Origin: Arthrobacter sp. zg-Y20
GTDB taxonomy: Bacteria; Actinomycetota; Actinomycetes; Actinomycetales; Micrococcaceae
Length of the DNA: 64,000 bases
Direction of reading: 5' to 3'
Assembly (NCBI RefSeq): GCF_030142075.1
Contig: NZ_CP126241.1
Span: forward strand, 806,001-870,000
Shown: positions 193-17,945 of the stretch, in pieces
Layout of the letters: each line of letters begins with the position of its first letter
Numbering within the stretch: the first letter of the stretch is position 1
Program-made: the position numbers and the translations under genes
Notes under the pieces: generated by a model
Told to the model about the DNA's origin: nothing
The model's input: only the letters and a program-made list of their open reading frames with translations
Database searches by the model: none

Positions 193-597
193 ATGGCATT
201 GTTCAGCACCAAACCGATTGTGGAGAAGAAGGAACAGTGGACAGCGCCTCAGCCTCCGCAGGCGGTCCTGGCAACCCTGGCCGCGGCCTTTTCCTTTCAC
301 GGTGAAGATGTCCGGCGGGAAAAGTCCTCGGTGGAGGTGCACCTCGGGTCCAATGCGGAATACCGGATGTGGGGCAACATGACCGAAGAAGGGCGCAAAC
401 ACCTGCCGATCGCCCTGACGTTCACTGCCTCCGGATTCGGCACGGGCACTGCGGTGGAGGTGTATGCCCGAGACACCTTCGGTTTCCGCATGGGAAGCGG
501 CAAGTCCTTCGGGGTGCCGGAAACGTTCAACCGGCGGATAGAGGAATTCCTCAGTTACGCGGCCGGGACGCTCGGCATAACCCGGCCCGTCTCCTGA
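193..597 (+). CDS. Conserved hypothetical protein, 134 aa
   Basis: The ATG at 193 has a GGGGGA Shine-Dalgarno sequence about 7 nt upstream, which supports this start. The product is a small soluble protein with no signal peptide or membrane segment. It alternates beta-like and amphipathic stretches: a Phe-His-Gly-Glu-Asp segment near residue 38, an aromatic Met-Trp-Gly segment near 59 and a Gly-rich Phe-Gly-Phe-Arg-Met-Gly-Ser-Gly stretch near 97. I do not recognise the family. The following minus-strand HAD gene ends 30 bp downstream, so this gene converges on the Ter biosynthetic operon rather than belonging to it. Confidence 0.7.
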   Translation: MALFSTKPIVEKKEQWTAPQPPQAVLATLAAAFSFHGEDVRREKSSVEVHLGSNAEYRMWGNMTEEGRKHLPIALTFTASGFGTGTAVEVYARDTFGFRMGSGKSFGVPETFNRRIEEFLSYAAGTLGITRPVS

Positions 598-626: not shown

Positions 627-1433
627 CTAGCCCCGCACCAGCCCGAGCACCCGCCGCAGGATCTCCTCCCCGGCCAGCACTCCACGGGCCGCGGTGACCT
701 GCAGGTGCCGGTCGCGGTAGCCGGCGTCGTCCAGCTCGCCGTGCGCGGGGCGGAAGGCGACGTCGGCGGCCTGGAGCATCGGCCGGTCCAGCAGCGAATC
801 CCCGGCAGTGATGATGCGCTCCGCCCCGGTCCGGCGGGCAACCTCGGCCACGGCATCCTGCTTGGTCACGGGCACCGGCACGCAGTACAGCTTGCGGCCC
901 TGCAGCGAGACAGTCCAGCCGCGCTCCGTACACCAGGTCTCCAGCTCCAGCAGGAACTGCCCCGGCAGTGCCGCCCGGTCCACCACGGCGTAGGCAAACA
1001 GGTCCTCAGCCGTGCGCAGCTTCAGCGTCCAGGCCGCGAACTCCGGGCGGGCCAGATACGCCGACACCTCGGCCAGGGGAGCGCAGCCGCCGGCCACCAG
1101 GGAACGGACCTTGTCCTGCCAGTCGGCGTCGGGCTCCCCGTGGTGCAGGATCACCCCGCCGTTGGTGGTCACCGCGTACTCCGGTGACGGAGCGGGCAAC
1201 TGGATCCGCCGGTACTGGGCCACCGTGCGCGTGGTCACGGGAACAAACACTGCAGCCTCCGCGGCGGCCACCAGCAGGTCCTCGGCCGCACGGGTCATAA
1301 AGGACAGCGGTTTGCCCTCGTACACCTCGGAGACCACCAGGCCCGGCGCGGCGGCATCCTCGGTGTCCAGGAACAGGGCGTTGGCGGAATAGATCAGTGT
1401 CCGGTCCAGGTCCGAGGCGAAGAGGGTCCTCAC
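627..1433 (-). CDS. HAD-superfamily phosphatase of the Ter biosynthetic module
   Basis: The product is predicted to hydrolyse a phosphate ester, probably an intermediate of the metabolite built by the upstream PRTase and lyase enzymes. The start is GTG at 1433; GTG overlaps the TGA of the PRTase gene (GTGA), indicating translational coupling. The longer frame to 1667 would run antisense-free into the upstream gene and is rejected. The 268-residue product starts with the HAD nucleophile motif Asp8-x-Asp10 (SDLDRTL) and has a motif IV Gly-Asp-Ser-Leu-Leu-Asp near residues 209-214. The region between them fits a sucrose-phosphatase/Cof-like cap. The last gene of the minus-strand Ter cluster. Substrate unknown. 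Confidence 0.85.
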   Translation of the reverse strand: MRTLFASDLDRTLIYSANALFLDTEDAAAPGLVVSEVYEGKPLSFMTRAAEDLLVAAAEAAVFVPVTTRTVAQYRRIQLPAPSPEYAVTTNGGVILHHGEPDADWQDKVRSLVAGGCAPLAEVSAYLARPEFAAWTLKLRTAEDLFAYAVVDRAALPGQFLLELETWCTERGWTVSLQGRKLYCVPVPVTKQDAVAEVARRTGAERIITAGDSLLDRPMLQAADVAFRPAHGELDDAGYRDRHLQVTAARGVLAGEEILRRVLGLVRG

Positions 1434-4237
1434 GCGTCGGCCCCCGAGGCGGCTCCGGAACCGGCTGGAGCCCCTGCGCCGGCCGCTGCACCGGCAACAG
1501 CCTTGCCGTCCGCACCCACCGCCCCCGCGGTGAACAGGGGATGGATCAGGCCCACGCAGCTGAACGGCAGGTCCGGGACTTCCTCCACCGGCACGCCGCG
1601 CTGTTCGGCCAGCAGCAGCACATGTGCCACGTCGGTCCGGGCCGCCGGATGCACCAGTACTTTCCACGGCACCCGGCGCAGCAGCACCCGCGTGGTCTCG
1701 CCGACCCCGGGCTTCACCAGGTTCACGTTATGGATGCCGTACTCCTCGCTCAGCCGTTCCACCGCGGCCCAGCCGACCCAGGTGGGTGTCCGGTCGGTGC
1801 CGGCCAGCTCGGCGGCATGCGCGACGGCGGCGGTCCGAACGGCGTCGAAATGCGCGGACACGGCGGTCAGGAAGTCCCGGGAAACGTCCGCTGCGGCCAG
1901 GTGGGAGTAGAACTTCGCGCCGTGGAAATCCTCCGGTCCAATGAGTTCCTTGTTGAACACCGTGCGGGATACCAGGCCCGAAACGGTGGAATTCAAGCAG
2001 GCCGAGGGGATCAGGTAATCCTCCCGGGTGCCGAACAGCTCCACGGAATGCCCGGGATCGGCCAGCACCGCCAGCTGCGCGGAGAACCGTACGCCGTCGG
2101 TTGCCTCGAACTTCTCCAACGCGGCGGTCAGTTCGCGGGTGATGGCGCCCTTACCGGTCCAGCCGTCCACAAACAGGATCCGCGCCGGATCGTACCGGGA
2201 GGCGAGGAAGCGCAGCGCGGTTTCATCCATGCCCACCCCGCGCACAATGCTCATGGTGTAGTGCGGCAGGTCCAGGCCGTGCATCTGCTGCGCCCAGCGG
2301 CGCATCAGGATCCCGATGGGTGTACCGGCCCGGGCCAGGGACACCAGCACCGGCTCGCGGTTACGGGCCGCCAGCGCCAGTTCGGTGACGGTGCCGACGG
2401 CGGCGGCCACCCGGGGTGCGGAGCGGACCAGGGCCTCCTCGTACAGGTCCTGGTACTGGGCCGAGGGCAGGTATTCCATCGGCAGCGACTCGGCATAATT
2501 CGCGCCGCCGGACTGGATGGCCGCTTCCCGCTCGGCCGTGGGTGCCTCCAGCTGCGCATCGCGCAGGTCCTTGAGCAGCCAGGTCACGTCCTCGGCAGCA
2601 TAGGAGCCGAACTCCGGTCCCGTCAGCGGCACCGCGGAAACCGGCACCGCGGAGACCGGCACCGCGGCGGGAGCGGCTGCCGGGTGTCCGGCCCACTCAT
2701 CGGCGGCGGGCAGGTCCGCGGGGGCCAGCAGCACGACGACGGCGGGAGTCACCGTGCGCAGCGCCTCGGTGACGCTGCCCGGGCCGGTGATGGACGCCAG
2801 ATCCGTCCCAGGTTCGGGCACCAGGACAATGCTGCCGAAACCGACCGCGGACCCTCCCGTGCCCTGGACCGTGCCGAGCCGCGGGCCCACGTTGTAGGCG
2901 TGCCGCGGGCCGGGGCCGTCTTCGGTGAGGTCATGGCTGGCGAAGTCCACCGAGTTGTTGATGGCGTAGTCGGGCCGGTCGATGGGCACGATGGGGGAGC
3001 GGGTGGTGGTGGAAAAACGCACCGGCCCGGTTTCGGCCAGGGCGTTGGCCACGGTTAGGGGCACGTGGATGAATTCCTCGCAGCCCAGCACCAGCACCGG
3101 TCCGGTGCTCGAGGGCAGGGCGGCGCGCAGTGCGGCAGCGATGACGGCCAGGTCCTCGCCGGACACGGCGCCCGGCAGGGCCTCGGGCAGGGTGCCCAGG
3201 TACTGAGAGGACATTCCCGCGGGATTGCCGAACCGGTCGCTGCGCAGCGGCCGCTGGCAGTCCTTCGCTGCGTCCAGCACGGTCAGCGTGCCCGGTTTCT
3301 GCGCCGTCGCCTCCACTGCCGCGCGGTCAGCGCCGTCGTTTCCTGCGGCGGCGGGCAGGGCAGTGATGACTTGCTGCGCCCGGGCCAGGATGTCTTCGCC
3401 CAGCTCGATCCGGCCGGTGCCGAGGGCAACTACTTCGATCCGGCAGCCCAGCGCGGCGGCCAGCTCGTCGAACCGCGCCCGGTCGGCGTCGGAACGCAGG
3501 TCAATCAGCGAGGCCACCACGTACACCGGATGCGGGGCCGCGGCGTGCAGTTCGGCGATGGTGTTGATGACCGTGGCACCGGTGCTGAGCTCATCATCCA
3601 CGAGCACCACCGGGACGTTGCCGTTCAGCAGGGCCGGGTCGGTGGGCAGCAGGCGGTGCGAGGTGGCGTGCGAATGGGCTTCCTCGAAGGCGCCGTAGGC
3701 CAGCGCGCCGTCCGGGGCGTGCCGGGTGGAGTGGATGTAGTAGGAGCCCAGTGTGTCCGCGACCAGCCGGCCCAGCCCGGTGGCCGTTTCCGCGTACCCG
3801 ATGGTCAATACTTCGGGGTGGGAAATCGGCAGGTCCCAGAGCTGTTCCCGGGCATGCATGAGCCGGGCGCGCGCCGACCGGCCCGCAGCCGGGCGGGCGC
3901 CGGCGCCGCGGGCGTCGCCGTCGACCGCCGCGCCTTCACCGCGCAGCACCGCCTGCACCTCGGCCGCGACCGAGCACAGGACGGCCTCGTTCACCGTGCT
4001 GCCCAGCGCGGCGCCGGCCAGGGAGCCAAGCAGCTCGCCGGCGGCCAGCACCAGGGCGGGTTCGGTGGGGACGTGCTTGGCCAGCACGCGGGAGACCAAG
4101 AGGTGCGCCCGGCGCGGGTTCCGGCGCAGCGCCAGGCCCACCAGGTCTTCCACGGGCAGCAGCGCGGAGGGGTCGGAGGTGATCCGCACGCCCAGGGCCT
4201 CGTGGACAAACCCGCCGGTCCAGGGGTGCTGGCTCAA
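1430..4237 (-). CDS. Fused PRTase_2-TRSP and PRTase_1(StiP)-PELOTA protein
   Basis: A 935-residue fusion of two predicted phosphoribosyltransferases. The N-terminal PRTase carries a PRPP-binding signature VVLVDDELSTG near residues 207-218 and is followed by a TRSP-like segment (residues about 330-500). The second PRTase (PRTase_1, also called StiP) has ILFVDGWTGKGA near 686-697. A PELOTA-like RNA-binding domain follows (HNVNLVKPGVGETTRVLL), then an Ala/Gly-rich tail. The start is taken as TTG at 4237, which overlaps the TGA of the upstream lyase gene as TTGA; the 30 residues further upstream would overlap that gene. These domains are known from Ter-linked clusters predicted to make a nucleoside-like metabolite. 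In many bacteria the two halves are separate genes. The biochemical reaction has not been shown. Confidence 0.85.
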   Translation of the reverse strand: MSQHPWTGGFVHEALGVRITSDPSALLPVEDLVGLALRRNPRRAHLLVSRVLAKHVPTEPALVLAAGELLGSLAGAALGSTVNEAVLCSVAAEVQAVLRGEGAAVDGDARGAGARPAAGRSARARLMHAREQLWDLPISHPEVLTIGYAETATGLGRLVADTLGSYYIHSTRHAPDGALAYGAFEEAHSHATSHRLLPTDPALLNGNVPVVLVDDELSTGATVINTIAELHAAAPHPVYVVASLIDLRSDADRARFDELAAALGCRIEVVALGTGRIELGEDILARAQQVITALPAAAGNDGADRAAVEATAQKPGTLTVLDAAKDCQRPLRSDRFGNPAGMSSQYLGTLPEALPGAVSGEDLAVIAAALRAALPSSTGPVLVLGCEEFIHVPLTVANALAETGPVRFSTTTRSPIVPIDRPDYAINNSVDFASHDLTEDGPGPRHAYNVGPRLGTVQGTGGSAVGFGSIVLVPEPGTDLASITGPGSVTEALRTVTPAVVVLLAPADLPAADEWAGHPAAAPAAVPVSAVPVSAVPLTGPEFGSYAAEDVTWLLKDLRDAQLEAPTAEREAAIQSGGANYAESLPMEYLPSAQYQDLYEEALVRSAPRVAAAVGTVTELALAARNREPVLVSLARAGTPIGILMRRWAQQMHGLDLPHYTMSIVRGVGMDETALRFLASRYDPARILFVDGWTGKGAITRELTAALEKFEATDGVRFSAQLAVLADPGHSVELFGTREDYLIPSACLNSTVSGLVSRTVFNKELIGPEDFHGAKFYSHLAAADVSRDFLTAVSAHFDAVRTAAVAHAAELAGTDRTPTWVGWAAVERLSEEYGIHNVNLVKPGVGETTRVLLRRVPWKVLVHPAARTDVAHVLLLAEQRGVPVEEVPDLPFSCVGLIHPLFTAGAVGADGKAVAGAAAGAGAPAGSGAASGADA

Positions 4238-5418
4238 TTCATGCTCGCTTCCAGAAGATCTACATAGGTGGTGTCGGGGGCGGTCACACCGAAGGCGGCG
4301 GCCCGGACGAGGGTGGAAGCTGCCCACGCCTGATGCGGTTTCATTTCGTTCATCTTGTTTTTATACGGGGACGCCGCCGCCCCGCCGCCGGCCGCACCGG
4401 AGATGTGCAGGGCGTCCAGGTAGGCCTCGTGGCTGATCACGGACATGGCGTGGACCAGCGGAACGTGCGAGGGATGGATAACGGTTTTGCCGAGCAGGCC
4501 ATTGGCCAGGTCCAGTTCGATCTCGCGGATCAGCCCGTCCAGGTTCGCCGTCAGCAACCGCTGCCGCAGGCCCAGCTCGTCCGCCTCCGCGAACGGGGTG
4601 GAGCGCAGCATGGACCGCAGCACCCGTTCCCCGGAACCGTAGTGTTCCCAGACCGGTCCGCTGATGATGAAGCCGTCCGGCCGGCCCAGGATGTTCACGA
4701 TGTCGCCGATCACCGCGGAGACCACCTTGACGTCATAGATGGTCAGGTCCCGGGACCGGCGCAGCCCGTAGGCGCTGGACATGTCCGTGGCGCCTATCCG
4801 CACCGCGAGGACATCAGCCCGGTTTGCCTGCAGCAGGTCCTGTATCCCGGTGAGGGTGGATGTGCGGGTTTCGGCGTGGATCATCAGCGGCGATTCCAGG
4901 ATCGGCATGATCCGCAGCTGCCGGGTCCCCGGCACGGCAGCTTCACGCGCCGCGTTCACGGTGTGCAGGGCGTCCAGGAAACGCTGCGCGGACCCGGTGG
5001 TGTTCTCGAACTTCGGGATCACGAACCCAGTGAGCACGTCCAGCGCCGTGCCGGCGCGTTCGGCCAGGCTGAGCAGCTGTTCCGGGGTGCGTACCCGGAC
5101 GAAAAGCATCAGGTCCGCTGCGCCGCCGCTCCGGCTTTCCCGCTCCAGCTGGGCCAGGGCGCCCACCACATTGGTTTCCGCCGCCGGAACATCGGCGTCC
5201 GCAATGGAATCCTCCAGGCACAGCACCATGCTCAGCACGCCGCGGGCGGCCTGCTTGCGCACATCCTTGACCAGGTCCGGGCGGGTGCCGGGGCAGTACA
5301 GGGTGGCGCCAAGCGCAGTAGCCAGCAGGCCGGGGTCGGAATCCAGGCCCAGGTCCTGCGGCGGACGGTGGAACAGGCGGGCGGTTTCGGCCTCGCTGAG
5401 GCTGGAGAAGTGGCGCAC
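4234..5418 (-). CDS. HpcH/HpaI aldolase / citrate-lyase-beta-like C-C lyase (Ter module)
   Basis: A 394-residue TIM-barrel carbon-carbon bond lyase of the HpcH/HpaI-CitE superfamily, in the version linked to Ter clusters. It starts with GTG at 5418, 4 bp after the preceding gene. Seen in the sequence: the early strand ATLYCPGTRPDL, a Leu-Glu-Asp (CLEDS) acidic motif, PKFENTTG, the acidic ILESPLM and GATDMSSAYG blocks, and KTVIHPSHVPLVHA near the C-terminus, as expected for metal-dependent CitE relatives. It probably cleaves or forms a C-C bond in the precursor handled by the PRTase and HAD proteins encoded immediately downstream. Substrate unknown. The stop overlaps the TTG start of the PRTase gene. 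Confidence 0.85.
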   Translation of the reverse strand: MRHFSSLSEAETARLFHRPPQDLGLDSDPGLLATALGATLYCPGTRPDLVKDVRKQAARGVLSMVLCLEDSIADADVPAAETNVVGALAQLERESRSGGAADLMLFVRVRTPEQLLSLAERAGTALDVLTGFVIPKFENTTGSAQRFLDALHTVNAAREAAVPGTRQLRIMPILESPLMIHAETRTSTLTGIQDLLQANRADVLAVRIGATDMSSAYGLRRSRDLTIYDVKVVSAVIGDIVNILGRPDGFIISGPVWEHYGSGERVLRSMLRSTPFAEADELGLRQRLLTANLDGLIREIELDLANGLLGKTVIHPSHVPLVHAMSVISHEAYLDALHISGAAGGGAAASPYKNKMNEMKPHQAWAASTLVRAAAFGVTAPDTTYVDLLEASMN

Positions 5419-5422
5419 GGCG

Positions 5423-6391
5423 TCAGTTCCCCCGGAACGGGAAACGTGCGGTCATGCTGAAGCCGAAGGCCTCCCAGATGGATTTGAGTTCCATCCCGTA
5501 GGGCATCACCTCGGCGCGCAGCTCCAGCACATTGCCGATCCGCAGGACCGAGAGCACGTAGAAGCTGCGTTCTCCGGCCGCTTCCGGGATGGTGACCGAT
5601 TCCCCGTTGAACAGGCCCACGTTCATGGGCTGTTTGGGCTTGGGGAAGAACAGTGCCCGGCGCAGCATCCCGGAATGGCGCAGCGCGATCAGGGCCAGGT
5701 CATCTTCGTAACTGACCAGCCGGCGGTTGCCCGGGGTGTCCACGGCCACGCCCTCAAGGGCGTCGGCGGGGATTCCGGGACCGGGTGCGGGCTGGCTGCC
5801 GGTGCTGAAGTCCCGGCCCTCCCAGACGGCGCGGATGGTCCCGGCGACGGCAAGGCTGCCCACTGCCGATTCCATCGGAGTCAGGCGCAGGACCGGGTTG
5901 CCGGTGTCCAGGGTGCGCAGCTCCTTGATGCCCGGGGCGGGGAACAGCCGGGTGTGCAGCGGGGCGGGGGCGGAGGGTGAGGCCGCGGGCGCGGCTGGGG
6001 AAGACGGCGCGGACGACGACGGCGCCCCGGAACCGCGGGACTCGGAACCGCGGGACCCGGAACTGCGGGAGCCGGCGTCGTTGGCGGTGGCCCGGTTGCT
6101 GTGCGCCTCGGCGTTGGGGGAGAGCCCCAGGGACAGCGAAGTGCTGACCGTGGGCGGTGCCGCCTGCTGCCGGGGCGGGGAAAGTGAGAGGGAACCCGGG
6201 GCCGGAGCTGCGGGAGCCGACGTCGTGCGGGGCGGGCTTGCCGGCGTCCCGGACGAGACCGGAGCCGACGGCGAAACCGGCGTCGAGGCAGCCGGTGCGG
6301 CAGCAACCGGGGCTGCCGCGGCGCGCGGCTTGACCCGGCGGCTCAGGTAGGGGAGGTCGGTGCGCACGGCACGCGAACGGTTCACGGCCAT
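5423..6391 (-). CDS. Ter-cluster protein of unknown function with Pro/Ala/Ser-rich N-terminal half
   Basis: Unrecognised 322-residue protein. Residues 1-150 are low-complexity (Ala, Pro, Ser, Thr) with short SLSLSP and SLSLGLSP segments; this part looks disordered. Residues about 155-322 look folded: alternating hydrophobic strands, an ALIALRHSGMLRRALFFP segment, then a beta-rich end with YVLSVLRIGNVLELRAEVM. I see neither the GLGWD nor the DLDAS motif of TerD proteins, so it is not an ordinary TerD paralogue. The ATG at 6391 is 3 bp after the TerD gene stop and the TGA is 4 bp before the lyase gene, so it lies firmly inside the operon, between the Ter and biosynthetic halves. It could be a linker or scaffold, but that is a guess from position. 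Confidence 0.75.
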   Translation of the reverse strand: MAVNRSRAVRTDLPYLSRRVKPRAAAAPVAAAPAASTPVSPSAPVSSGTPASPPRTTSAPAAPAPGSLSLSPPRQQAAPPTVSTSLSLGLSPNAEAHSNRATANDAGSRSSGSRGSESRGSGAPSSSAPSSPAAPAASPSAPAPLHTRLFPAPGIKELRTLDTGNPVLRLTPMESAVGSLAVAGTIRAVWEGRDFSTGSQPAPGPGIPADALEGVAVDTPGNRRLVSYEDDLALIALRHSGMLRRALFFPKPKQPMNVGLFNGESVTIPEAAGERSFYVLSVLRIGNVLELRAEVMPYGMELKSIWEAFGFSMTARFPFRGN

Positions 6392-6394
6392 TGC

Positions 6395-6946
6395 CTAGAG
6401 GTCGAATCCGAAGTCGGCGGCGAGCCCGCGGAGCCCGGTGGTGTATCCCTGGCCCAGGGCACGGAACTTCCAGTCACTGCGGTGCCGGTACAGCTCGCCG
6501 AACATCATGGCGGTGATGCTGTCCCGGTTGGCGGCGGGCAGGTCGAAGCGGACCAGTTCCCCGCCGTCGGCCCGGGCCACCCGGATGTAGGCGCTGCGCA
6601 CCGCGGCGAAGGTGCCCGGGCCGCGCAGCTCGGGGTCCGCGTAGACGGCAAACACAATCTTGGTAACGGACGCGGGCACCCGGGAAAGGTCGACGTCGAT
6701 CTGTTCTTCGTCCTCGTCGCCGGCGAACTGCACCGAAGCCTCGGGGCTGGCGATCTGGTTGAAGAACACCAGATGGTCATCGGAGAGGACCCGGCCGTCG
6801 GGGCCGCAGAGCAGGGTCAGCGGCACCAGCTCGGACTGCGGTCCGCGGCTGGGAATCACATTCCAGCCCAGGCCCACCATTACCGAGGTCAGGCCCGGGT
6901 TTTCCGCGGTCAGGGCGGCGTTGGCGCCGGCCACCAGGGTACCCAT
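6395..6946 (-). CDS. TerD-family protein (divergent, 183 aa)
   Basis: A divergent member of the TerD calcium-binding stress-protein family. It keeps the overall layout: VMVGLGWNV near residue 22, the aromatic FFNQIASPE, the acidic loop GDEDEEQIDVDL that in TerD proteins helps bind Ca2+, a run ending in VRFDLP, and the C-terminal WKFRALGQGY followed by ADFGFDL. The usual FDLDAS stretch is replaced by a non-acidic VPLTLL, so one calcium ligand set appears lost. The ATG at 6946 abuts the stop of the XpaC-like gene directly. TerD proteins are cytoplasmic and are thought to form membrane-associated complexes with TerC. Confidence 0.9.
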   Translation of the reverse strand: MGTLVAGANAALTAENPGLTSVMVGLGWNVIPSRGPQSELVPLTLLCGPDGRVLSDDHLVFFNQIASPEASVQFAGDEDEEQIDVDLSRVPASVTKIVFAVYADPELRGPGTFAAVRSAYIRVARADGGELVRFDLPAANRDSITAMMFGELYRHRSDWKFRALGQGYTTGLRGLAADFGFDL

Positions 6947-7465
6947 TTACTGCTCCCCGAAGGTCAGGGAGGAGGGGGAGAACTTGTCATCCAGGAACCG
7001 GCCGTGCGTGGACAGCTCGGCGATGGCACCGGTGCGGACCTGGTTCTCCAAATCCCGGGCGATGCCCTCGAGGATGGTCAGTTGTTCAACGAGCAATGCG
7101 GTGGCCTCGGAATCGTCGGTCCGCTCCCGGTCATTCAGGGCCACGTAGGCCCGCAGGGGAGTCGGAAGGTAGTTGGTGATGATGGCGTTGAGCAGCACCC
7201 GCTGCTCGGTGGACGCGCCGTTGCTGCCCACGTATTCCAGCAGCGGGGCCAGGATGTCATCGATCTGCCGGACCATGGAAGAGACCATCGGCGGCAGGGC
7301 AGCTCCGGCGCGGCGGACGGCGGTGCGCAGGTTCACCAGTGACCGTACGGTCTCCCGGTGTTCGGCGTCGGGGCCCGACGGCGGCTGGTCGCCTTGCTGC
7401 GCCAGCTCCGCCACCGGTTCCGGCGTGTTGCCGAAAAGGGACCCGAAGAACCTGCCTATCGCCAC
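6947..7465 (-). CDS. XpaC-like helical protein next to TelA
   Basis: A 172-residue, mostly helical soluble protein encoded between telA and a terD gene. The start is GTG at 7465. The N-terminus (MAIGRFFGSLFGN) is amphipathic, and the rest is coiled-coil-like with LPPMVSSMVRQIDDIL and LLVEQLTILEGIARDL helices and a LPTPLRAYVAL segment. This pattern resembles XpaC-type proteins, which commonly accompany TelA, but I cannot confirm the family without a profile search. The gene lies 38 bp after telA and directly abuts the downstream terD gene. A role as a TelA partner in envelope or toxic-compound stress is inferred from context. Confidence 0.75.
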   Translation of the reverse strand: MAIGRFFGSLFGNTPEPVAELAQQGDQPPSGPDAEHRETVRSLVNLRTAVRRAGAALPPMVSSMVRQIDDILAPLLEYVGSNGASTEQRVLLNAIITNYLPTPLRAYVALNDRERTDDSEATALLVEQLTILEGIARDLENQVRTGAIAELSTHGRFLDDKFSPSSLTFGEQ

Positions 7466-7503
7466 GGCCGTGCCTCATGCATGGAAGCTGCCCTGCCCGG
7501 CAT

Positions 7504-8694
7504 TTAGCGGGACTCGCTCTGGCGGGAGCGCTCCAGGTACGGCTTCGCCTGGGTGATGGTGCTCTCCAGGGACTTCACCGTGCCCTCCATGTTGCGGGCA
7601 GCCTCGGAACGGAAGTTGTCGATGGCGTCCATGGTCTGGAACACGTTGTCGAAGGCCCGCTGCAGGGTCTCCACGCTCACGCCGGAGCTGGAGGCCTGCT
7701 GGTGTATGCGCGCCGTCTGGTCCTTGAGCATTTCGCTGGTGCTCAGGATCATGTTGTTCGTGGTGGCGTTCACGGCGTCGATCTGGTCCAGGACCATCTT
7801 CTGGTTCGCCAGTGCCTGGGCCACGATCACGGCGGTGCGCAGTGCCGAAATGGTGGTGGTGCGGGCCCGTTCCACGCCCTTGATCAGTTCCACGTTGTTC
7901 TTGCGGATCAGGTCCATGGCCAGGTAGCCCTGCACGGAGACGGCGAGCTGGGTCAGGATGTCCTGGCGGCGCTGCCGGATGGGGAAGAGCACGTCTGCTT
8001 CCAGGGCGTTGGCCTGTTCAATCTGCCCGGAGTTCTTGAGCTTGTCCACCTTCTCCACGCAGGCGGCGTCCAGGGACTCGGCCAGCACGGAGTATTCGCT
8101 CAGGGTCTGCATGGTCTTCCACAGCTCCACCTTTTCCCCGGCGAGGGAGGCGTTGTCCTTGAGCAGCTCGTCCTGGCCGGCCATCAACGACTTGATGATC
8201 TTGTCCAGCTGGACCTGCGCGGACTCGTACTTCTGGAAGTACTTGGCCAGCTTGTTGCCGCCCGGGATGATGCCCAGGATCTTGCGGCCGGTGCCCAGGT
8301 TCGCCTGGTTCGGGGTCAGGTCCTCCACGGTGCTGCGCAGGTCGCCCAGAGTGGTGGCGACCTTCTTCTGGGCGTCGTTGCCGGAGCGCTTGGCGCCGGC
8401 CACCGAGGTGGAGGAGCGGTCCAGCAGGCGGCTGGAGTAGCCGGCGGACGTGGTCATTTCCTGTCCGGCCAGCTTGTTGATGGAATCCACCTGGGCGGTG
8501 AACTCCGGGCTGCGGGCGTCCAGCTTGGATACTTCCTCCATGAAGGAACGCGCCTGGGCGGCGATTTCCTTGCGGCGTTCTTCCGGAACCGGGACCATTC
8601 CGGGAGCGTCGTTCGGCGCTACCGGGGCGGGCGGTTCGGGTGCCTGAAGCACCAGGGCTTCGGAGGCGTCCGGGGGAGTCAGCGGTGAAGTCAT
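7504..8694 (-). CDS. telA: Toxic anion resistance protein TelA
   Basis: A 396-residue TelA/KlaA-family protein, a helical cytoplasmic protein associated with resistance to tellurite and other toxic agents; the mechanism is not established. The ATG at 8694 is chosen over the frame's earlier start because the protein begins MTSPLTPPDASEAL, followed by a short Pro-rich leader, with AAAGG upstream of the ATG. Diagnostic segments include the helical LGIIPGGNKLAKYFQKYES, LIRKNNVELIKGVERA, the ALRTAVIVAQALANQK helix and NNMILSTSEMLKDQ. It lies between a terD gene and an XpaC-like gene in the Ter cluster. There is a 98-bp gap to the upstream terD gene, the largest inside the cluster. Confidence 0.93.
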   Translation of the reverse strand: MTSPLTPPDASEALVLQAPEPPAPVAPNDAPGMVPVPEERRKEIAAQARSFMEEVSKLDARSPEFTAQVDSINKLAGQEMTTSAGYSSRLLDRSSTSVAGAKRSGNDAQKKVATTLGDLRSTVEDLTPNQANLGTGRKILGIIPGGNKLAKYFQKYESAQVQLDKIIKSLMAGQDELLKDNASLAGEKVELWKTMQTLSEYSVLAESLDAACVEKVDKLKNSGQIEQANALEADVLFPIRQRRQDILTQLAVSVQGYLAMDLIRKNNVELIKGVERARTTTISALRTAVIVAQALANQKMVLDQIDAVNATTNNMILSTSEMLKDQTARIHQQASSSGVSVETLQRAFDNVFQTMDAIDNFRSEAARNMEGTVKSLESTITQAKPYLERSRQSESR

Positions 8695-8792
8695 GGTCCA
8701 GCCTTTTCGTAAGGTGAGCTGCGGTATGGGTGCGGGGAGTGTTCCGGCCCGCGGAAGCACTCCCCGCAGGGGTGTAGCTGAGAAGCTAGAGC

Positions 8793-9374
8793 CTAGCTGA
8801 GCTGGACTCCAAAATCGGTAACAATTCCGGCCAGTCCCGAAGCGTAGCCCTGGCCCACGGCCTTGAACTTCCATTCGCCGTTGTTGCGGTACACCTCGGC
8901 GAAGATCATGGAGGTTTCCGGTGCGGCGTCCTCGCTGAGGTCGAACCGGACAATCTCGGAGTCGTTGTCCTGGTTGATCACGCGGCAGTATGCACCGCGG
9001 ACCTGGCCGAAGTTCTGGTGGCGCACGTCGGCCTGGTCAATGGAGACCACAATGACCACGCGCTCGACGTCGGCGGCCATAGAGGTCAGGTCCAGCAGGA
9101 TCTGCTCATCGTCGCCTTCACCGGCGCCGGAGCGGTTGTCGCCCAGGTGGGTGACGGAGCCGTCCTTGGCTGCGGGCTGGTTGTAGAAGATGAAGTCGTC
9201 GGAGGACCGCACCTTGCCGTTGGCGCCGATCATCAGGGCCGAGGCGTCGAGGTCGAAGGGTTCGCCCGTGGTGGTGCGGGGATCCCAGCCCAGGCCGACA
9301 ACGGCCTTCTGCAGCCCGGGGTCGGTCTTGGTGAGGGAAAGGTTGTTGCCCTTCGCGAGGGTCAGACCTGCCAT
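8793..9374 (-). CDS. TerD-family calcium-binding stress protein
   Basis: A canonical 193-residue TerD protein. Visible family motifs are VGLGWDPR, FDLDASALMIG, FIFYNQ, the GEGDDEQILLDL acidic loop, FGQVRGAYCRV, VRFDLSED and the closing WKFKAVGQGYASGL. The acidic FDLDAS and GDDEQ segments are the Ca2+-binding positions of TerD structures. The start is the ATG at 9374. It is very similar along its whole length to the neighbouring gene at 9405-9986, 30 bp away, so the two look like a tandem duplication. Role: cytoplasmic component of the Ter stress response, working with TerC-type membrane proteins. Confidence 0.95.
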   Translation of the reverse strand: MAGLTLAKGNNLSLTKTDPGLQKAVVGLGWDPRTTTGEPFDLDASALMIGANGKVRSSDDFIFYNQPAAKDGSVTHLGDNRSGAGEGDDEQILLDLTSMAADVERVVIVVSIDQADVRHQNFGQVRGAYCRVINQDNDSEIVRFDLSEDAAPETSMIFAEVYRNNGEWKFKAVGQGYASGLAGIVTDFGVQLS

Positions 9375-9404
9375 GGTATTCAGCTCCTAGTACGGGGGAT
9401 GGGT

Positions 9405-9986
9405 TTAGTCGAGGGCGATGCCGAAGTCGGTGGCGACTCCGTACAGTCCGGAGGCGTAGCCCTGGCCGATGGCGCGGAACTTCCACTCTCCGCGGTTGCG
9501 GTAGATCTCCGCGAAGATCATGCAGGTTTCCGCTGCCGCGTCTTCGCTGAGGTCGTAGCGGACCACTTCCGCGTCCGTGTCCTGGTTGACCACCCGGCAG
9601 TACGCGTCGCGCACCTGGCCGAAGTTCTGGTGGCGGGCTTCGGCCTGGTCGATGGAAACCACAATGACCACGCGGTCGACGTCGTCGGTCAGGATGCTGA
9701 GGTCAATCAGGATCTGCTCGTCGTCGCCGTCGCCCAGGCCGGTGCGGTTGTCGCCCTGGTGGACCACCGAGCCGTCCTTGGCGGACAGCTGGTTGTAGAA
9801 GATGAAGTCGTCCTGGGAGCGCACCTTGCCGTTGGCGCCCAGCAGCAGTGCCGACGCGTCCAGGTCAAAGGGATCCCCGCTGGTGGTGCGCGGGTCCCAG
9901 CCCAGGCCGATCAGGGCCCGTTCCAGCCCCGGATCGGCCTTCGTGAGGGAAAGGTTGCTTCCTTTGGACAATGTCAGGCTGGACAA
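9405..9986 (-). CDS. TerD-family calcium-binding stress protein (TTG start)
   Basis: Another 193-residue TerD protein, close to its downstream neighbour: IGLGWDPR, FDLDASALLLG, FIFYNQ, GDGDDEQILIDL and WKFRAIGQGYASGLYG are all present. The start codon is TTG at 9986; a good AAAGGAG Shine-Dalgarno sequence lies 6 nt upstream, and the alignment with the neighbouring protein also begins there. All acidic calcium-binding positions are kept, so it should be functional. It lies 24 bp after the third TerD gene (10011-10601) and is co-transcribed with the cluster. Confidence 0.95.
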   Translation of the reverse strand: MSSLTLSKGSNLSLTKADPGLERALIGLGWDPRTTSGDPFDLDASALLLGANGKVRSQDDFIFYNQLSAKDGSVVHQGDNRTGLGDGDDEQILIDLSILTDDVDRVVIVVSIDQAEARHQNFGQVRDAYCRVVNQDTDAEVVRYDLSEDAAAETCMIFAEIYRNRGEWKFRAIGQGYASGLYGVATDFGIALD

Positions 9987-10010
9987 GGTGCTCTCCTTTG
10001 AGACGTGCGG

Positions 10011-10601
10011 TTAGAGCGAGCGGGCGGCGGTGGGGATCAGGTCCATGACCGTGCGGCCCTGGGCCCGTTCGCCGAGAGCGGTGAAGCTCCAGCCCGAACC
10101 GTCGCGGGACACCTTCGCCATGACCATGGCCGTGTGGGTGCCCGAGTCGGTCAGCTGGTAGCGGGCAATTTCGGGGCTGCCCGGCGTCGAGTCGTCGATC
10201 AGGCGGCAGAAGGCGTTCTCCACCTGGTCGAAGGTCTGCCGGCTGTAGCTGGAGATCACGAAGACAATCTGCTGCACGGCGGGGGAGACGGCCTGCAGGT
10301 TTACCAGGATGACCTCGTCGTCGCCCTCGCCGGCACCGGTGAGGTTGTCACCGGTGTGCTTGGCGGAGCCGTCCTTGCTGGCCAGCTGGCCGTACCAGAC
10401 CTGGTCAACGGCGTTGCCGTTGGCATCGAAGAAAATGGCTGAGGCATCCAGGTCCACTTCGGCGGCCTTCTTGGTGCCGAAGATTCCACGCTTGACCGGG
10501 GCTGCGGAATCCCAGCCCAGTCCCAGACGCGTCTTGCTCAGTGCGCCGCCGTCCTTCTTCGTCAGTGACAGCGACTGACCTTTCTGCAGGCTCAGGCCCA
10601 T
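10011..10601 (-). CDS. TerD-family protein with a short insertion (TerZ-like)
   Basis: A 196-residue TerD-family protein. It has LGLGWDSA, the VDLDASAIFFD acidic strand, VWYGQLASKDGS, the GEGDDEVILVNL loop and a C-terminal WSFTALGERAQGR. Relative to the tandem pair downstream it carries a Lys-rich insertion (VKRGIFGTKKAAE) before the DLDAS strand and replaces the FIFYNQ motif by VWYGQ, which is a TerZ-like or GRP-like variation. The ATG at 10601 has AGGAG four nucleotides upstream. It is the second gene of the operon, 12 bp after the DUF475/TerC gene. Confidence 0.93.
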   Translation of the reverse strand: MGLSLQKGQSLSLTKKDGGALSKTRLGLGWDSAAPVKRGIFGTKKAAEVDLDASAIFFDANGNAVDQVWYGQLASKDGSAKHTGDNLTGAGEGDDEVILVNLQAVSPAVQQIVFVISSYSRQTFDQVENAFCRLIDDSTPGSPEIARYQLTDSGTHTAMVMAKVSRDGSGWSFTALGERAQGRTVMDLIPTAARSL

Positions 10602-10613
10602 GATTCTCCTTTG

Positions 10614-11723
10614 TTATTTGGTGTACGCGGGTTCATTGGCGGCGTTGGCCGCTGCCACGCGCTTGTTGCGGACAATCGAGGAGGTCAGGGCGGCGAGGAT
10701 GAAGACCACGCCGATCAGACCGGTGATGACCTCGTTGATTTCGAGCTCGATGGTGAGCAGCAGGATGGCGGCCAAGGCGCCGATGGCCCAGTGTGCGCCG
10801 TGGTCCAGGTACACGAACTCGTCCAGGGTGCCCTGGCGGACCAGGAAGACGGTCAGGGACCGGACGAACAGGGCGCCGATGAGGCCGAGGCCGAGGGCAA
10901 TGATGATCGGGTCCGAGGTGATCGCGAAGGCGCCAATGACACCGTCGAAGGAGAAGGACGCGTCAATGACTTCGAGGTAGAGGAAGAGCATGAAGGCGGC
11001 CTTGCCGGTGGCCTTGACCAGCCCGTTGGGGCCCTTCTTCGGCTCGTGCGCCTCGGCGTCGTCGGCGTCGTAATCCTCATCGCCGTCGACGTCGAACATG
11101 TCGCCCAGCCCAGTGACCAGCAGGTAGGTGATCAGGCCGGCGACACCGGCAATGAAGATGTCGGTGGTGTGCTTGTCATCGGCCAGCAGGGCTGCGGCCA
11201 GCAGGGCGGCGAGGCCAACCACGAGGGAGGCGCCGTTGATCTTGCCGATCTTGCCCAGCGGGGCCTCAAGCCAGCGCAGCCAGCGGATGTCGCGTTCCTC
11301 GAACATGAAGTCCAGGAAGATCATCAGCAGGAACAGGCCGCCGAAGGCAGCGATCTGCGGGTGTGCCTCGTGCAGGATGTACCCGTAGGTGCCTTCCTGC
11401 TCCGGGTCGCCCTTTTCCAGGGCCAGCTGCAGCGCATCGATGGGGTTCATGCTGGCACTGATGCCCACAATCAGCAGCGGGAAGATGATGCGCATGCCAA
11501 CGACGGCGATCAGGATGCCGACGGTGAGGAACATCTTCTGCCAGAAGGGGCTCATTTTTTCGAGGATGCGCGCGTTGACCACGGCATTGTCGAAGCTGAG
11601 GCTGATTTCGAGAACACCCAGGATGGCGCAAAGGACAAGTGCCTCTACCCCGCCGTAGAAGAACGCGATGACCAGCGCGACGGCCGTAATGGCGAACGAC
11701 CAACCGAAAGTCTTGAGAAACAC
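10614..11723 (-). CDS. TerC-like integral membrane protein (DUF475 family)
   Basis: A 369-residue polytopic membrane protein of the DUF475/TerC superfamily, the membrane anchor of Ter systems. It has about nine hydrophobic segments and two internally repeated signature motifs, LSFDNAVV near residue 43 and SFSFDGVIGA near residue 257. These correspond to the repeated acidic Asp-bearing helices of TerC proteins, thought to bind or move metal ions. A charged cytoplasmic loop rich in Asp and Glu (VDGDEDYDADDAEAHEP) separates the halves. Translation starts at GTG 11723; AAGGAG lies about 11 nt upstream. First gene of the operon, with a candidate stress-sigma promoter upstream. Confidence 0.9.
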   Translation of the reverse strand: MFLKTFGWSFAITAVALVIAFFYGGVEALVLCAILGVLEISLSFDNAVVNARILEKMSPFWQKMFLTVGILIAVVGMRIIFPLLIVGISASMNPIDALQLALEKGDPEQEGTYGYILHEAHPQIAAFGGLFLLMIFLDFMFEERDIRWLRWLEAPLGKIGKINGASLVVGLAALLAAALLADDKHTTDIFIAGVAGLITYLLVTGLGDMFDVDGDEDYDADDAEAHEPKKGPNGLVKATGKAAFMLFLYLEVIDASFSFDGVIGAFAITSDPIIIALGLGLIGALFVRSLTVFLVRQGTLDEFVYLDHGAHWAIGALAAILLLTIELEINEVITGLIGVVFILAALTSSIVRNKRVAAANAANEPAYTK

Positions 11724-12943: not shown

Positions 12944-15370
12944 TTGAAAAACTGCACGAGCTGCGGCGCTGCACTACAGCCGCACTGGAAATTCTGTACC
13001 AACTGCCAGGCGCCTCAGCCGGCGCAGCAAGACAGTGGAACCGCAGCTCCTGCCGACCCGGATGCTTCGCGCACAGCCGGTTCCGGGGACCAAAATGAGC
13101 AGCCGACGCAGCGCTTCGAGCAGCCGGCCGCCGGGCCTACGGATCCCCAGCCGACGCAGCGCTTCGAGCAGCCGACCCCCTGGCCTACGGATCCCCAGCC
13201 GACGCAGCGCTTCGAGCAACCCCCGGCCCAAGCGGGTGCGTCCACCCCGACAACCTCGGTATTTGATCCGCCCGTTGTCGCCCCCACCGGCGCCTACGCA
13301 ACGGCCGGAAGCTTCGCCCAGCACGCCCCGAGCCAGGGTGCCGGCGCTTCCGCCAATCCCGGCGGATACGGGCCGGGCAACGGCAATAACTTCAACGGCC
13401 CGGGCAACGGCGCGAACAACAACGGCAACGGCCCCGCCGGACCCGGTGTGCCGCCGTCGGGCTCCGAAACGCCGAAAAAACCCAACCGCAAGGTAATCAT
13501 CCTGGTTGTGGTCCTGGCGATCCTGCTTGCCTTGGGCATCGGAGCGTACTTCTTTGTGCAGAACATCGTCCGCGGCGGCGCCGGCTCCCCGGACGCTGCA
13601 GCAGACAAGCTGTTGGAATCTATCGAATCCAAGGACGTGGTGTCCCTGGTCGGGCTGGTTCCCCCGAACGAGCGTGAGCCGCTTCAGCGGCTGCAGGAAC
13701 ACGTCGAAGAGAAGATGGACGAATTCGGGATCCAAGACGCCATGGACAAGGTTGGCCGCGGCGAGGAAGAAAACGAGGACGAACTGACGTTCGACGGCGT
13801 CGACATCACCTTCACGGACGTTGCGCCGGAAATCACCGAGATTGACGAGAACACGGCCCTGATCAAGTACACCGAGGGTGAAGTCCGGGTGCAGATGGAC
13901 CCGGACGCCACCAACGGACAGCTGCGGTCCCTGTTGGAAGCATCCGGTGACGCGGGCGAGGAAAAGATTGACGAGACCACAAAGCTGTCTGAGCTGGGAC
14001 CGGACGGATCGGCCCTGACACTGGTCGCCACCAAGCGTGACGGCAGCTGGTACATCAGCCCCACGTACAGCGTGGTGGAAATGGTCAACCAGAGCGAAGA
14101 CTTCGGCCACGGCTCCGTGCCGGATTCCGCAGGCGGCAGCAACAGTCCCGCCGAGGCGGCGCAGGCCATGGTGGAGTCGCTGCCCGAGGTGATGGACAAG
14201 GGGAGCGTGGAGCCGCTGGCCGGAACACTGTCCGTCCACGAAGGCGGCCTCCTGTACCTTTACGGCGAAATGTTCGACTCGGTCTTGGAGGGTGTGGCCG
14301 GGGAAGAACTGAACGTGAGCGACGTGCGCTTCTCCGAAGGTGAAACGGACGGAGACCGTGCCAGCGCCGTCGTCGAGAACATCACGCTGGAAAGCGGATA
14401 CGGCGACGAGGTCACAGTGACCAAGGACTGCATCGAGGGTGAAACAGATTCGGACAGCTTCTGCCTGAACGGTTCCGGCTACTCCTCGAACGCGTCGCCG
14501 GAGATGTTCGGCGGGGTGAAGGAGTTCTCCCTGACCACGGTCAAAGAGGACGGCAAATGGCGGGTCAGCATGGAGGACACCGTTGTTGACTGGATGATTC
14601 GGTGGTCGGATTCGCTCACCCGGGAGCAGGCCCTGGCCTTGATGCAGCTCGCCAGCAGTGAGGATCCCAGCGGAGATATCGTGCCCGATGAAGCCACTGA
14701 GGTGGAGTTCAACTCGGCCGGTTACGCGGTGCTCTCCCTGAGCCTGGATGAGGACATGGAACTGACGGCCGAAGACGAATACGAGTTCGGCACCATCACC
14801 GTGTACTCCGAGGACGGCAAGGAAGAGATCGGCACCCTGGGCTACGGCGATGAGATTCCGGCAGGTGACTACAAGCTGGTGGTCTTCGCCGGCTATGAAT
14901 GGGACGGCGAGTTTGCCGAGAACGGCAGCGACACCAACTATTCCAAGGAACTTACGCTGACCGAGGACGACGGCTATTCGTCGTCGACGTCCCCGACGTC
15001 CCCGACGTCGCCGAAGTCGCCATCCACGACGCCGTCACCCTCCGCCTCGCCCTCGACGGCGCCTGACGCCCCGGAGGACTCTGCCTACGGCTTGCTGATG
15101 CCAGCGGAAACCATGAGCCACGACATGGCTGCCAGCGACGGCGAGTCAGAGGCCGTGGTGACTGTGATGGGTTCCTCCACGTCACCGATTGTCATCGGCG
15201 TGACCCTGGACGGCCAGGAACACAAGCTGGACATTGCGCAGGGAGGACGCGGCGAGCTCCCCATCCCGTATCCCAATGACGGCAAGGGCCACACCATGAC
15301 CGTCCGGATGATCGACGGCGGTGACGGCTCCATGATGCTCAGCTACAACATCAGCATCGAACGCAAGTAA
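12944..15370 (+). CDS. Zinc-ribbon, single-TM protein with large extracytoplasmic region
   Basis: An 808-residue protein starting at TTG 12944 (GGGGGAG upstream). Residues 4-21 form a zinc ribbon (Cys4, Cys7, Cys18, Cys21). Residues 53-100 carry three 16-residue repeats built on QPTQRFEQP, followed by a Gly/Asn/Pro-rich linker. One transmembrane helix spans about residues 182-207 and is preceded by KKPNRK, so the zinc ribbon is cytoplasmic and about 600 residues lie outside. The outer part has two related SPAEAA/SPDAAA-started domains resembling DUF4878-type folds, a beta-rich acidic domain, a Ser/Thr/Pro linker near 680-715 and a C-terminal beta domain. It is similar in layout to cell-envelope sensors or lipoprotein-like stress proteins; no function is assigned. 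Confidence 0.85.
13100..13226 (+). repeat. Exact in-frame 48-bp repeats inside the zinc-ribbon gene
   Basis: CAGCCGACGCAGCGCTTCGA begins at 13100, 13148 and 13196, exactly 48 bp apart, encoding QPTQRFEQP plus a variable seven-residue spacer. The third copy is incomplete. Confidence 0.9.
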
Positions 15371-15479
15371 CGTGCACCGGTACCGGGACCGCATGCCCGT
15401 CCCGGTACCGGTGCTCCACTCTTCAAGATTTCCCGGCGACTGCCGGCGCACACGACGTAGAAACCCAAGGGAAGGCACC

Positions 15480-17945
15480 ATGAAATTCTGTCCAGAATGC
15501 GGTAAACCACAAGAACCGGGAGGCCGGTTCTGCCCGGAGTGCGGGCACGCCATGGGCGCCGACACTTCGCCGGAAACCAGCTCCGCCCCGGCGCAGCCCG
15601 TTTCGGGTCCTTCCGGAGAAACTCCTGCGGCCGGTCCTGCCGGCGAAGCCGGAACGGCCGGACCGGAGTCCGCCGGCGCGGGGACCCCTGCAGCCGCCGC
15701 CGAGGTACGTGAGCCGCAGTTTGCCCCCGCCGGTGCCCCCGCCGCAGGCCACCCCCACCAGGGCTTCGCCCAGCCGGGTCAGGGTTACGGTCAGCCGGGC
15801 CAGCCGGGTCATCCGCAGGGCTTCGCGCAGCCGGGTCGGCCGCAGGGTTACGGTCAGCAGCCGCCGCAGGGTTACGGTCAGCCGCAGGGTTATGGCCAGC
15901 CCGGTCAGCAGCCGCCGCAGGGTTACGGTCAGCAGCCGCCGCAGGGTTACGGCCTGCCGGGTCAGCCGCAGGGTTATGGCCAGCAGCAGCCGCCGCAGGG
16001 CTACCCTTACCCGCAGGGTTACCCGCAGCCGCCCGTGCAGCAGGCGCCCAAGCGTCCGTCCGCATTTGCCGGCGTCCCGGTCAGCGACTATGTCCGGGAC
16101 GGCATTGCGTTCCTGGCCCTGTTCTTTTCGCTGTTTATGACCTGGTGCTGGGGACTTGACACCTACGAAGAGAACGAGGCCAAGGCCTGGGGCCGGGTCG
16201 ACGTCCTGCTGATCACCATCCTCAGCATGCTCTCCCTTGGCGTCAGCTACCTCTGGCGTGCCGGAATGCTGGGACAGAAGGTTGGTTACCGGGCCATTCA
16301 GGACATCAGGCTGCTGGCCAATGTCCCGTACGTGGTGCTGGTGCTCGTGTATCTGGTCCTGAGCATGCTGGCCAAGGACGCTTACTCCAACTTCTACGGG
16401 CTGGGTGCAGCGGTGGCCTTCGGCCTGGCCGGAGCGCTGCTTGCCGCACAACCGCGGCGCGCGGAAATTGCCGATGGAGACGCCGACGGCGCCCGGAACC
16501 GGCGTTGGCTGTTCATCGCGTTTGGCGTGGTGGGTCTCGCCGCAGTTGTCGTAGTTGTTGACCTTGTCCAAGCAGCGATCCAGGTTGTGTCGGAGGACAT
16601 CGATGTCGACCACATGGGGGTCAGTCTGGTCCTGGCCATCCTGGGTTCGGGCCTTGCCGTATTCATCCTGGCCTTCATCACACTGCGGGTCCGGCGTGGG
16701 GAAGACCCCTGGCGCTTCCTGGGTGTCGTCCTGGGCGTGGGCACCGCATTCCTGGCCCTTATCTCGCTGACCCGAACCCAAGCATTCGATATCTCAGTCA
16801 CCCCGGGCTGGATCGGCTTCCCTCAGATGTTCTGGATGGCGTTCGGCGTTGTGATGTCAGCACCGTCTGTTGCCCGTCTCACGGAACGTACTGTCGCGGC
16901 CCCCGGCGACCGCAAGGCTGCACTTAAGCCGTTCCTGTTCCTGGCGTTGCTCCTGTCCTGCGCCGTCGTGGTCTTTTCGTTGGTGGGCCTGACCGTGGCC
17001 TTGGTGAACGAGTACGACGTTATTGCCCCCTGGGTAGTCACGCTGATCCTGGGCCTCGTTGCGGCCGTCGGCACCGTGCTGGCGCCGCGGCTGCTTTACC
17101 GCGACGGACGGTCCACGTTCGTGATGGGCAGTGCCTACGCCGTCGGGCTGTTCGTTATTGCCCTGATCCTGATGATTGTCTGGGCGGTCGCGGGATCCGA
17201 TGGCTCACCGTTCAGTGAGGGTATTCCCAGCTCGCCAGTCGAGTCCATGGTCCTGGTGCTTGGCTGGATCCTGGCCTTCGGCGTGCTTGCCGTGCTGTGG
17301 CTGAACCGTGCGGTCCGCGCACACTTCACCTCGCTGCCTGCTGCCGGCAGCCGTACCGGGTTCAACTTTGCAGGAGCTCCGGGCCAGCAGGCGCCGTCGC
17401 ACACTCCGGGCATTCCGACGCCGGCAGCCCTCTACGGTGCGCAGCAGGTTCCGTTCCAGCAGCCGGCACAGCCCGGGCAGTTCGCTGGTCCGCAGGGTCA
17501 GCAGCCGCCGCAGTTTGGCGGACAACCGGGCCAGCAGTTCCCCGGGCAGCAGTCCGCTCCGGGAACCCAGCCGGCACCTGGGCAGCCGCAGCACCAGCAG
17601 GCCCCGGCTCAGGAGCAGGCACCCGTTCAGGAGCAGGCTCCTCAGGGGCACACCCCGCGGGAGCAGCAAGCGCACCTGGCGCCGGCTGATGTTCAGCCGC
17701 CCGCCGAAGAGGAAGCGGCCGAAGAAACCGTCCGCCGCGTCCCCGCAGACGATCCCGATGCCGCCCTCCTGGCAGAAGCAGCCGATCCGGCAACGCCTCT
17801 GGCCCGGCTGCAGGAGCTGGCCACCCATCCGCGGGCGCGGGTAGCGGTGGCGGCGAACCCGTCCACGTACCCGGATCTGCTCAACTGGCTTGGCCAGCTG
17901 GGCGATCCGGCTGTGAATGAGGCATTGAACCGCCGCCAGCAGTAG
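15480..17945 (+). CDS. Zinc-ribbon, multi-TM protein with C-terminal LRV domain
   Basis: An 821-residue protein starting at ATG 15480 (AAGGGAAGG upstream); an earlier in-frame start is rejected. Residues 4-21 form a zinc ribbon (Cys4, Cys7, Cys18, Cys21) matching that of the preceding protein. Residues about 95-190 are a [14 protein letters not shown] low-complexity repeat. Roughly a dozen hydrophobic segments lie between residues 200 and 620. A second Gln/Pro-rich stretch (640-755) follows, and residues about 757-821 form an LRV domain ([20 protein letters not shown], then NEALNRRQQ) closely related to the small protein at 12031. The gene is 109 bp downstream of the other zinc-ribbon gene. 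Both tails appear cytoplasmic. Function unknown; a membrane-stress or assembly role is only a guess. Confidence 0.85.

Follow-up and report, generated by a model that had tools for sequence, protein, structure and literature searches.

The closest described relative of the locus analysed here is the Ter-dependent stress-response (Ter) module of Anantharaman, Iyer and Aravind (2012; Mol BioSyst 8:3142), in which TerD, TerC-type and TelA proteins stand with a phosphoribosyltransferase (PRTase) and a HAD-type phosphatase, and for which a nucleoside-like product was predicted. Our comparison with that module rests on the descriptions given in the available portions of papers that cite it (PMC5571608, PMC7824862, PMC8115787, PMC6790187, PMC9933665, PMC12054061). 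Our locus is an eleven-gene run of Arthrobacter sp. zg-Y20, lying in what we call the window, the whole 64,000-nucleotide stretch analysed (bases 806001-870000 of a 3.53-Mb single-contig genome). It likewise has TerD, TerC-type, TelA, PRTase and HAD genes; it differs from the 2012 module in having no ATP-grasp gene and in carrying both PRTase-like domains (PRTase_2 and StiP), TRSP and PELOTA in one chain of 935 amino acids (aa). A preliminary description of this DNA had mentioned a predicted nucleoside-like product from comparative work, and the citing papers bear this out. We give a probability of roughly 55% to the reading that the run is a Ter-dependent stress-response operon of actinobacterial type, whose biosynthetic half would make a ribosylated signal that is read by the TerD/TelA/TerC half.

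The same biosynthetic genes lie beside ter genes on Escherichia coli, Klebsiella and Pseudomonas plasmids. In the ter islands of an IncHI2A E. coli plasmid (L179) and a Klebsiella plasmid (L184), all biosynthetic domains are present, as here; unlike in Arthrobacter, the ATP-grasp gene leads, a HAD-like gene precedes StiP, the lyase gene stands at the end, StiP-PELOTA forms a gene of its own and the halves lie on opposite strands. The Acinetobacter jumbo phage vB_AbaM_ME3, called a relatively complete Ter system in the available part of PMC7824862, keeps PRTase_2, HAD, StiP, TerD-type and membrane genes together as Arthrobacter does, but no lyase homologue was detected in the stretch fetched from it (L176). 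The Ter system is known but poorly understood, and its parts already carry Pfam names; with the 2012 work cited and the plasmid copies at hand, the proposal in the preliminary description that the system is undescribed has to be given up. We take it that the names under which Pfam lists the lyase, PRTase_2, TRSP and PELOTA families come from the 2012 Ter context.

A further parallel comes from capsule synthesis. In Bcs3 of Haemophilus influenzae type b (Hib), the PRTase-like CriT moves ribose-5-phosphate from phosphoribosyl pyrophosphate (PRPP) to a hydroxyl and the HAD phosphatase CrpP then removes the phosphate, according to the available text of PMC10299916, and Campylobacter jejuni Cj1432 acts likewise, according to that of PMC12096443. 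StiP shares with these systems the HAD pairing, and its predicted fold matches CriT; unlike StiP, they act on capsule sugars, CriT has helical inserts, and no sequence similarity between them and StiP was detected. The main text of PMC10299916 mentions neither StiP nor the Ter operon.

Open reading frame calls and Pfam place eleven consecutive genes on the minus strand, running from 11723 to 627 and joining the Ter genes to the lyase, fusion and HAD genes, as had been claimed. In the order of transcription, with the domains of the fusion under it, they are:

10614..11723, minus: DUF475/TerC membrane protein of 369 aa, with which the run opens (DUF475 1.9e-125, TerC 1.9e-18)
10011..10601, minus: TerD-family protein, 196 aa (1.3e-46)
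9405..9986, minus: TerD-family protein, 193 aa (5.1e-78, whole-genome search)
8793..9374, minus: TerD-family protein, 193 aa (8.7e-79)
7504..8694, minus: TelA, 396 aa (Pfam 7.8e-85; ATG start)
6947..7465, minus: 172-aa protein without recognised family (homologue in 12/12 other genus loci)
6395..6946, minus: TerD-family protein, 183 aa, the fourth (Pfam 8e-51)
5423..6391, minus: 322-aa protein with a low-complexity N terminus and a cryptic TerD-like C-terminal domain (predicted fold)
4234..5418, minus: C-C bond lyase, HpcH/CitE-type, 394 aa (C-C_Bond_Lyase 3.6e-112)
1430..4237, minus: fusion PRTase_2-TRSP-StiP-PELOTA_1, 935 aa (Pfam; TTG start)
3413..4144, minus: PRTase_2 domain, fusion residues 32-275 (Pfam 3.2e-59; PRPP loop VDDELSTGAT)
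2879..3151, minus: TRSP domain, fusion residues 363-453 (Pfam 2.9e-22)
1859..2608, minus: StiP domain, fusion residues 544-793 (Pfam 1.3e-101; PRTase-like predicted fold)
1541..1780, minus: PELOTA_1 (L7Ae-like) domain, fusion residues 820-899 (Pfam 1.7e-35)
627..1433, minus: HAD-type phosphatase, 268 aa (S6PP 22.0 bits; GTG start)

The Pfam scan covered ten of the eleven proteins; the four TerD genes, which the preliminary description had counted correctly, come from a whole-genome profile search, and three of them were also found by the scan. The start-codon listing gives TTG at 4237, GTG at 1433 and ATG at 8694 as likely starts of the fusion, HAD and telA genes. Overlaps of one to four bases had been reported for the last genes: two 4-base overlaps stand (lyase/fusion, 4234-4237; fusion/HAD, 1430-1433), and the remaining junctions are gaps of 0 to 98 bases, those between 5418 and 6947 measuring 0, 3 and 4 bases and the widest, between TerD and TelA, spanning 8695-8792. 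A promoter scan (0 promoter-like sites against 1.0 expected) and a terminator scan (6 terminator-like sites against 6.4 expected) give no evidence either way on a single transcript.

The composition of the run recurs across relatives. Of 29 genomes of the genus, 13 have StiP, and the same 13 have TerD; all 12 other loci fetched show the same eleven-gene order, so the run is not due to chance. Among 197 genomes of the class, StiP was found in 43 (E<=1e-10) and PRTase_2 in the same 43 (E<=1e-8), with the lyase (E<=1e-100) in 42 of these and TerD (E<=1e-40) in 45, including all 43; weaker lyase-profile matches, the best at 9.6e-14 and presumably ordinary CitE-like proteins, were not counted. The lyase is missing from one StiP genome (G097) because its contig begins inside PRTase_2. 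In this sample the lyase, PRTase_2 and StiP were not found away from Ter genes, so that the refuting condition set in the preliminary description does not apply to these three; the genome-wide search did not include the HAD gene. The order lyase-PRTase_2-TRSP-StiP-PELOTA-HAD is complete in 12/12 genus, 19/22 class and 75/80 public loci, no other order of these parts occurs in these fetched loci, and TerD lies inside the fetched stretch in 12/12, 20/22 and 74/80, respectively. Here the class loci are 22 fetched around StiP from the 42 other StiP genomes, and the public loci (L095-L174), mostly from Streptomyces, are the top 80 from a set of at least 588. In eight loci a part went undetected, in seven of these at a contig end; the eighth (L086) lacks HAD though its contig continues. 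A recent acquisition was considered and rejected. Of the 13 StiP-positive genus genomes, eight have their match on contig C1 (G021 consists of two contigs, each of the remaining seven of a single one), and in every one of these eight StiP lies between 0.66 and 0.83 Mb, a comparison of positions and not of neighbouring genes. The shared position speaks for inheritance within the clade.

In an AlphaFold model of the 935-aa fusion (mean predicted local distance difference test score (pLDDT) 80.8, predicted template modelling score (pTM) 0.58), StiP has a PRTase-like predicted fold, and its best solved match is CriT. Ser and Arg residues of StiP are invariant after the strands that match those of CriT PRPP loops 1, 2 and 6, a correspondence of strands and not a residue-level superposition, and the pocket-like residues are near-absolutely conserved down to 28% identity. 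The residue counts given here, apart from that for the actinobacterial rows, cover rows found by tblastn, leave out L103, L162, L177, L178 and L090-L094, and include L176 and L182, both of 234,900 bases and probably the same phage counted twice. Judging from the model, StiP, labelled a cysteine protease, looks instead like a ribose-attaching enzyme. The label "PRTase fusion" in the preliminary description covers only the PRTase part and passes over the StiP and PELOTA domains that Pfam finds.

The lyase profile matches CitE and malyl-CoA lyase chains in the PDB (best 3e-9), and E69, D70, R108, R110, K136, E175 and D212 are kept in 113/113 detected rows; E175 and D212 are probably metal ligands, by analogy with CitE. 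PRTase_2 has a predicted PRTase fold and a PRPP loop with two acids, by which we class it as a type I phosphoribosyltransferase; against PDB sequences at E<=1 its profile gives nine matches, all to PyrR, the best (0.0018) over the PRPP loop only. The HAD protein scores 22.0 bits against the S6PP cut-off of 20.3 and stays below the cut-off of the HAD-IIB model, and its DxDxT, Lys191 and GDxxxD positions are kept in 115/115 detected rows. PELOTA_1 matches L7Ae-type chains weakly (best E 0.1 and 0.032); Glu847, Thr849 and Arg850 (ExTR) are present in 120/120 ungapped rows, keeping the Glu and Arg of the L7Ae motif and not its Asn.

A HAD-type gene adjoins StiP here and in E. coli, Pseudomonas, Prescottella, phage ME3 and Klebsiella (L179-L182 and L184), downstream of StiP in Arthrobacter and Prescottella and upstream in the other four. 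The E. coli gene scores 20.1 bits to S6PP, just below the cut-off; it and the Klebsiella gene are annotated hypothetical and were assigned as HAD-like by alignment, and the HAD-like gene of Pseudomonas is annotated Trehalose-6-phosphatase and has no Pfam match at E<=10.

Our reading is based on gene content, gene order, co-occurrence, predicted folds and conserved residues, from which we infer the use of PRPP by StiP, the order of the steps, the identity and sensing of the product, and the coupling to RNA. The HpcH/CitE-type lyase would make or trim a carbon skeleton or supply the acceptor; PRTase_2, which is adenine phosphoribosyltransferase-like, and StiP, as a second transferase, would each use PRPP to attach phosphoribose; and the HAD enzyme encoded beside StiP would remove the 5-phosphate, as CrpP does after CriT. 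PELOTA may couple StiP to RNA, as a substrate guide or as a regulator, and the five TerD-type domains of this operon would sense the product at an assembly of TelA and TerC in the membrane.

Several results weigh against this reading. The CriT match is a single entry among the 50 structural rows shown, which the other domain otherwise fills, and has 7% identity and a root-mean-square deviation of 3.8 A. The HB-2 helical insert of CriT, between its second and third strands, is absent from the StiP model, which has at this position a strand (659-662), a helix (672-681) and a strand (687-690). In the PRPP loop of StiP, DGWTGKG, Asp is followed by Gly in 121/121 rows, leaving a single acid in place of the adjacent pair of PRTases, and the first loop of StiP shows none. 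StiP has no sequence match to any PRTase or to CriT in the PDB, and hhalign comparisons with a profile of six PRTases from this genome and with an actinobacterial PRTase_2 set give no signal (P 0.28 and 0.37); one other PRTase_2 set gives a faint signal (P 0.0012 trimmed, 0.017 untrimmed and 0.14 reversed), the controls (lyase, HAD, PELOTA and reversed sets) ranging from 0.14 to 0.78. The HAD query used found nothing in L086 or in L175, a viral contig. Co-occurrence amounts to linkage, not to one pathway. Finally, terZ-F alone suffices for tellurite resistance in E. coli and restores this resistance in Klebsiella (PMC8115787, available portion); the biosynthetic half is therefore not needed for that phenotype and must serve something else.

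The most probable rival, although we consider it unlikely, is that StiP-PELOTA is a non-enzymatic, PRPP-sensing and RNA-binding regulator, with PRTase_2 as the only catalytic transferase. PyrR combines a PRTase-like fold with RNA binding in this way, for pyrimidine genes, and is not known to have a PELOTA domain, lyase or HAD partner, all of which the Ter locus has. A PRTase-like predicted fold that lacks one PRPP-loop acid and the L7Ae-like domain with its invariant ExTR motif both suit such a regulator, but the near-absolute conservation of the pocket-like residues at so low an identity is more typical of catalysis, and a HAD gene usually accompanies StiP.

Somewhat less probable still is that the two halves are co-inherited neighbours that work separately, the Ter genes serving metal or envelope stress and the others an unrelated metabolism. 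The sufficiency of terZ-F and the two TerD genomes without StiP (of 45) are in keeping with such an arrangement. The presence of TerD in 43/43 StiP genomes, the retention of both sets on plasmids and in a jumbo phage, and the fact that no gap in this one-strand run exceeds 98 bases all speak against it.

We regard it as doubtful that StiP is a cysteine protease with a Ter protein or the fused enzyme as its substrate. Both Pfam and RefSeq name it so, the Pfam name being "Tellurite-like stress resistance cysteine protease StiP". A search of 72,556 plasmid and 50,697 phage records found relatives in 2567 and 3 of them, respectively, and 35 of the 40 plasmid rows shown have a name of this kind. 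Cys747 (codon at window 1997-1999) is Cys in 115/121 rows and invariant in the 26/26 actinobacterial rows, as a protease would need, which is a further point against our reading. It is Ile in 6/121, and exactly these six have Cys774 (position 774, codon at window 1916-1918), two residues after the invariant His772, so that a migrated nucleophile is conceivable. In a 10-row alignment across lineages, however, no Cys column is common to all rows, whereas the SxxRAG, SIxR and DGWTGKG stretches are, and the predicted fold matches a PRPP enzyme. Neither of two structure searches has a papain-like or other protease title in the 50 rows that it shows, an absence that excludes nothing. PRTase_1 was the name under which Pfam earlier listed StiP, and the PRTase idea is thus old; new here are the fold-based test of StiP, the CriT analogy and the HAD pairing. 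PMC5571608 lists PRTase_1 in company with PELOTA_1 and, with reference to the 2012 work, mentions a Ter PRTase whose C terminus is PELOTA; in phage ME3 the copy bears the annotation phosphoribosyl transferase. Both points argue against a protease. In a literature search outside which most subscription papers lay, we found no report of the product of the Ter biosynthetic half, none joining a ribofuranosyltransferase with tellurite resistance, and none in which StiP, cysteine protease and tellurite come together; one paper has the name cysteine protease StiP.

The least probable reading, a long shot, is that StiP-PELOTA is an RNA-directed O-ribosyltransferase, in which PELOTA would place StiP on a structured RNA, StiP would move the phosphoribose of PRPP to a ribose hydroxyl, the HAD enzyme would remove the phosphate and TerD proteins would read the product as a stress or phage signal, the Ter "nucleoside-like metabolite" then being, or deriving from, ribosylated RNA or its breakdown product.

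The preliminary description saw no ATP-grasp gene and supposed that it was either elsewhere or dispensable. No ATPgrasp_Ter match exceeds the curated cut-off in the whole genome (best 25.8 bits against 29.1), and a location elsewhere was rejected: the single sub-cut-off match at E<=10 lies inside a 1104-aa frame that is probably CarB. The second supposition fared better. ATPgrasp_Ter occurs (E<=1e-10) in 29/197 class genomes and in 14/43 StiP genomes, leaving 29/43 without a match, and it is shown within 10 kb of StiP only in G102; short contigs leave the distance undecided in G218 and in G097, which has it on the same contig as TerD. Since it is so rarely near StiP in the class, the actinobacterial version seems normally to work without ATP-grasp, which we take as an accessory; in the plasmids of E. 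coli, Klebsiella and Pseudomonas, the module includes an ATP-grasp gene.

StiP and PRTase_2 share one open frame in 12/12 genus loci, 13/22 class loci and 70 of 78 public and viral loci in which both are present, and two of the eight non-fused loci among the latter look like frame breaks. A single fusion event was rejected: 99/114 rows are fused, and the tree, thinned from 114 to 29 rows and made rough by long branches, needs five changes, three of them forced by starred branches (left out were L103 and L162, with broken frames, L178, and rows with StiP below 60 bits, under 250 aa or without a PRTase_2/TRSP match). The alternation of fused and split forms on this tree suggests that the two transferases act together.

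In the Ter half, the 322-aa protein has a TerD-like fold in its predicted structure, with no Pfam match at E<=10 and an hhalign P of 0.11 against the TerD profile; it looks like a cryptic fifth TerD-type domain of the operon. The 172-aa protein, previously called XpaC-like, has no Pfam match at E<=10, and that name finds no backing. On the Prescottella plasmid (L181:6275-7465), a 396-aa protein without credible family match overlaps the lyase gene and occupies the position of the 322-aa protein. The Pseudomonas plasmid module has a TerD-trypsin fusion (L180:5885-7024; TerD 4.6e-8, Trypsin_2 1.9e-27) between its ATP-grasp and PRTase genes. An extra diverged TerD domain (E ~1e-26) occurs in 3/13 locus-bearing genus genomes (G016, G027, G028), far from the locus and inside long open frames (L094). 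A defence-library search gave a sole match, TelA to JetC at 0.0087, which is not credible. Outside the run, two large plus-strand proteins (window 12944-17945), divergent upstream of the operon, have weak zinc-ribbon matches, the second also matching DUF7937 and LRV_2, and a 134-aa open reading frame (window 193-597, plus strand), tail to tail with the HAD gene, has no Pfam match at E<=0.001.

Because ter genes are common on clinical plasmids, the identity of StiP matters beyond Arthrobacter. Should StiP prove to be a transferase that uses PRPP and works with a phosphatase, its cysteine-protease label would be misleading, and the product of the pathway could come to light in a simple PRPP assay, for which the single-chain 935-aa version is a convenient protein. 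StiP as a ribose-attaching enzyme would thereby turn the product of the operon into a testable question.
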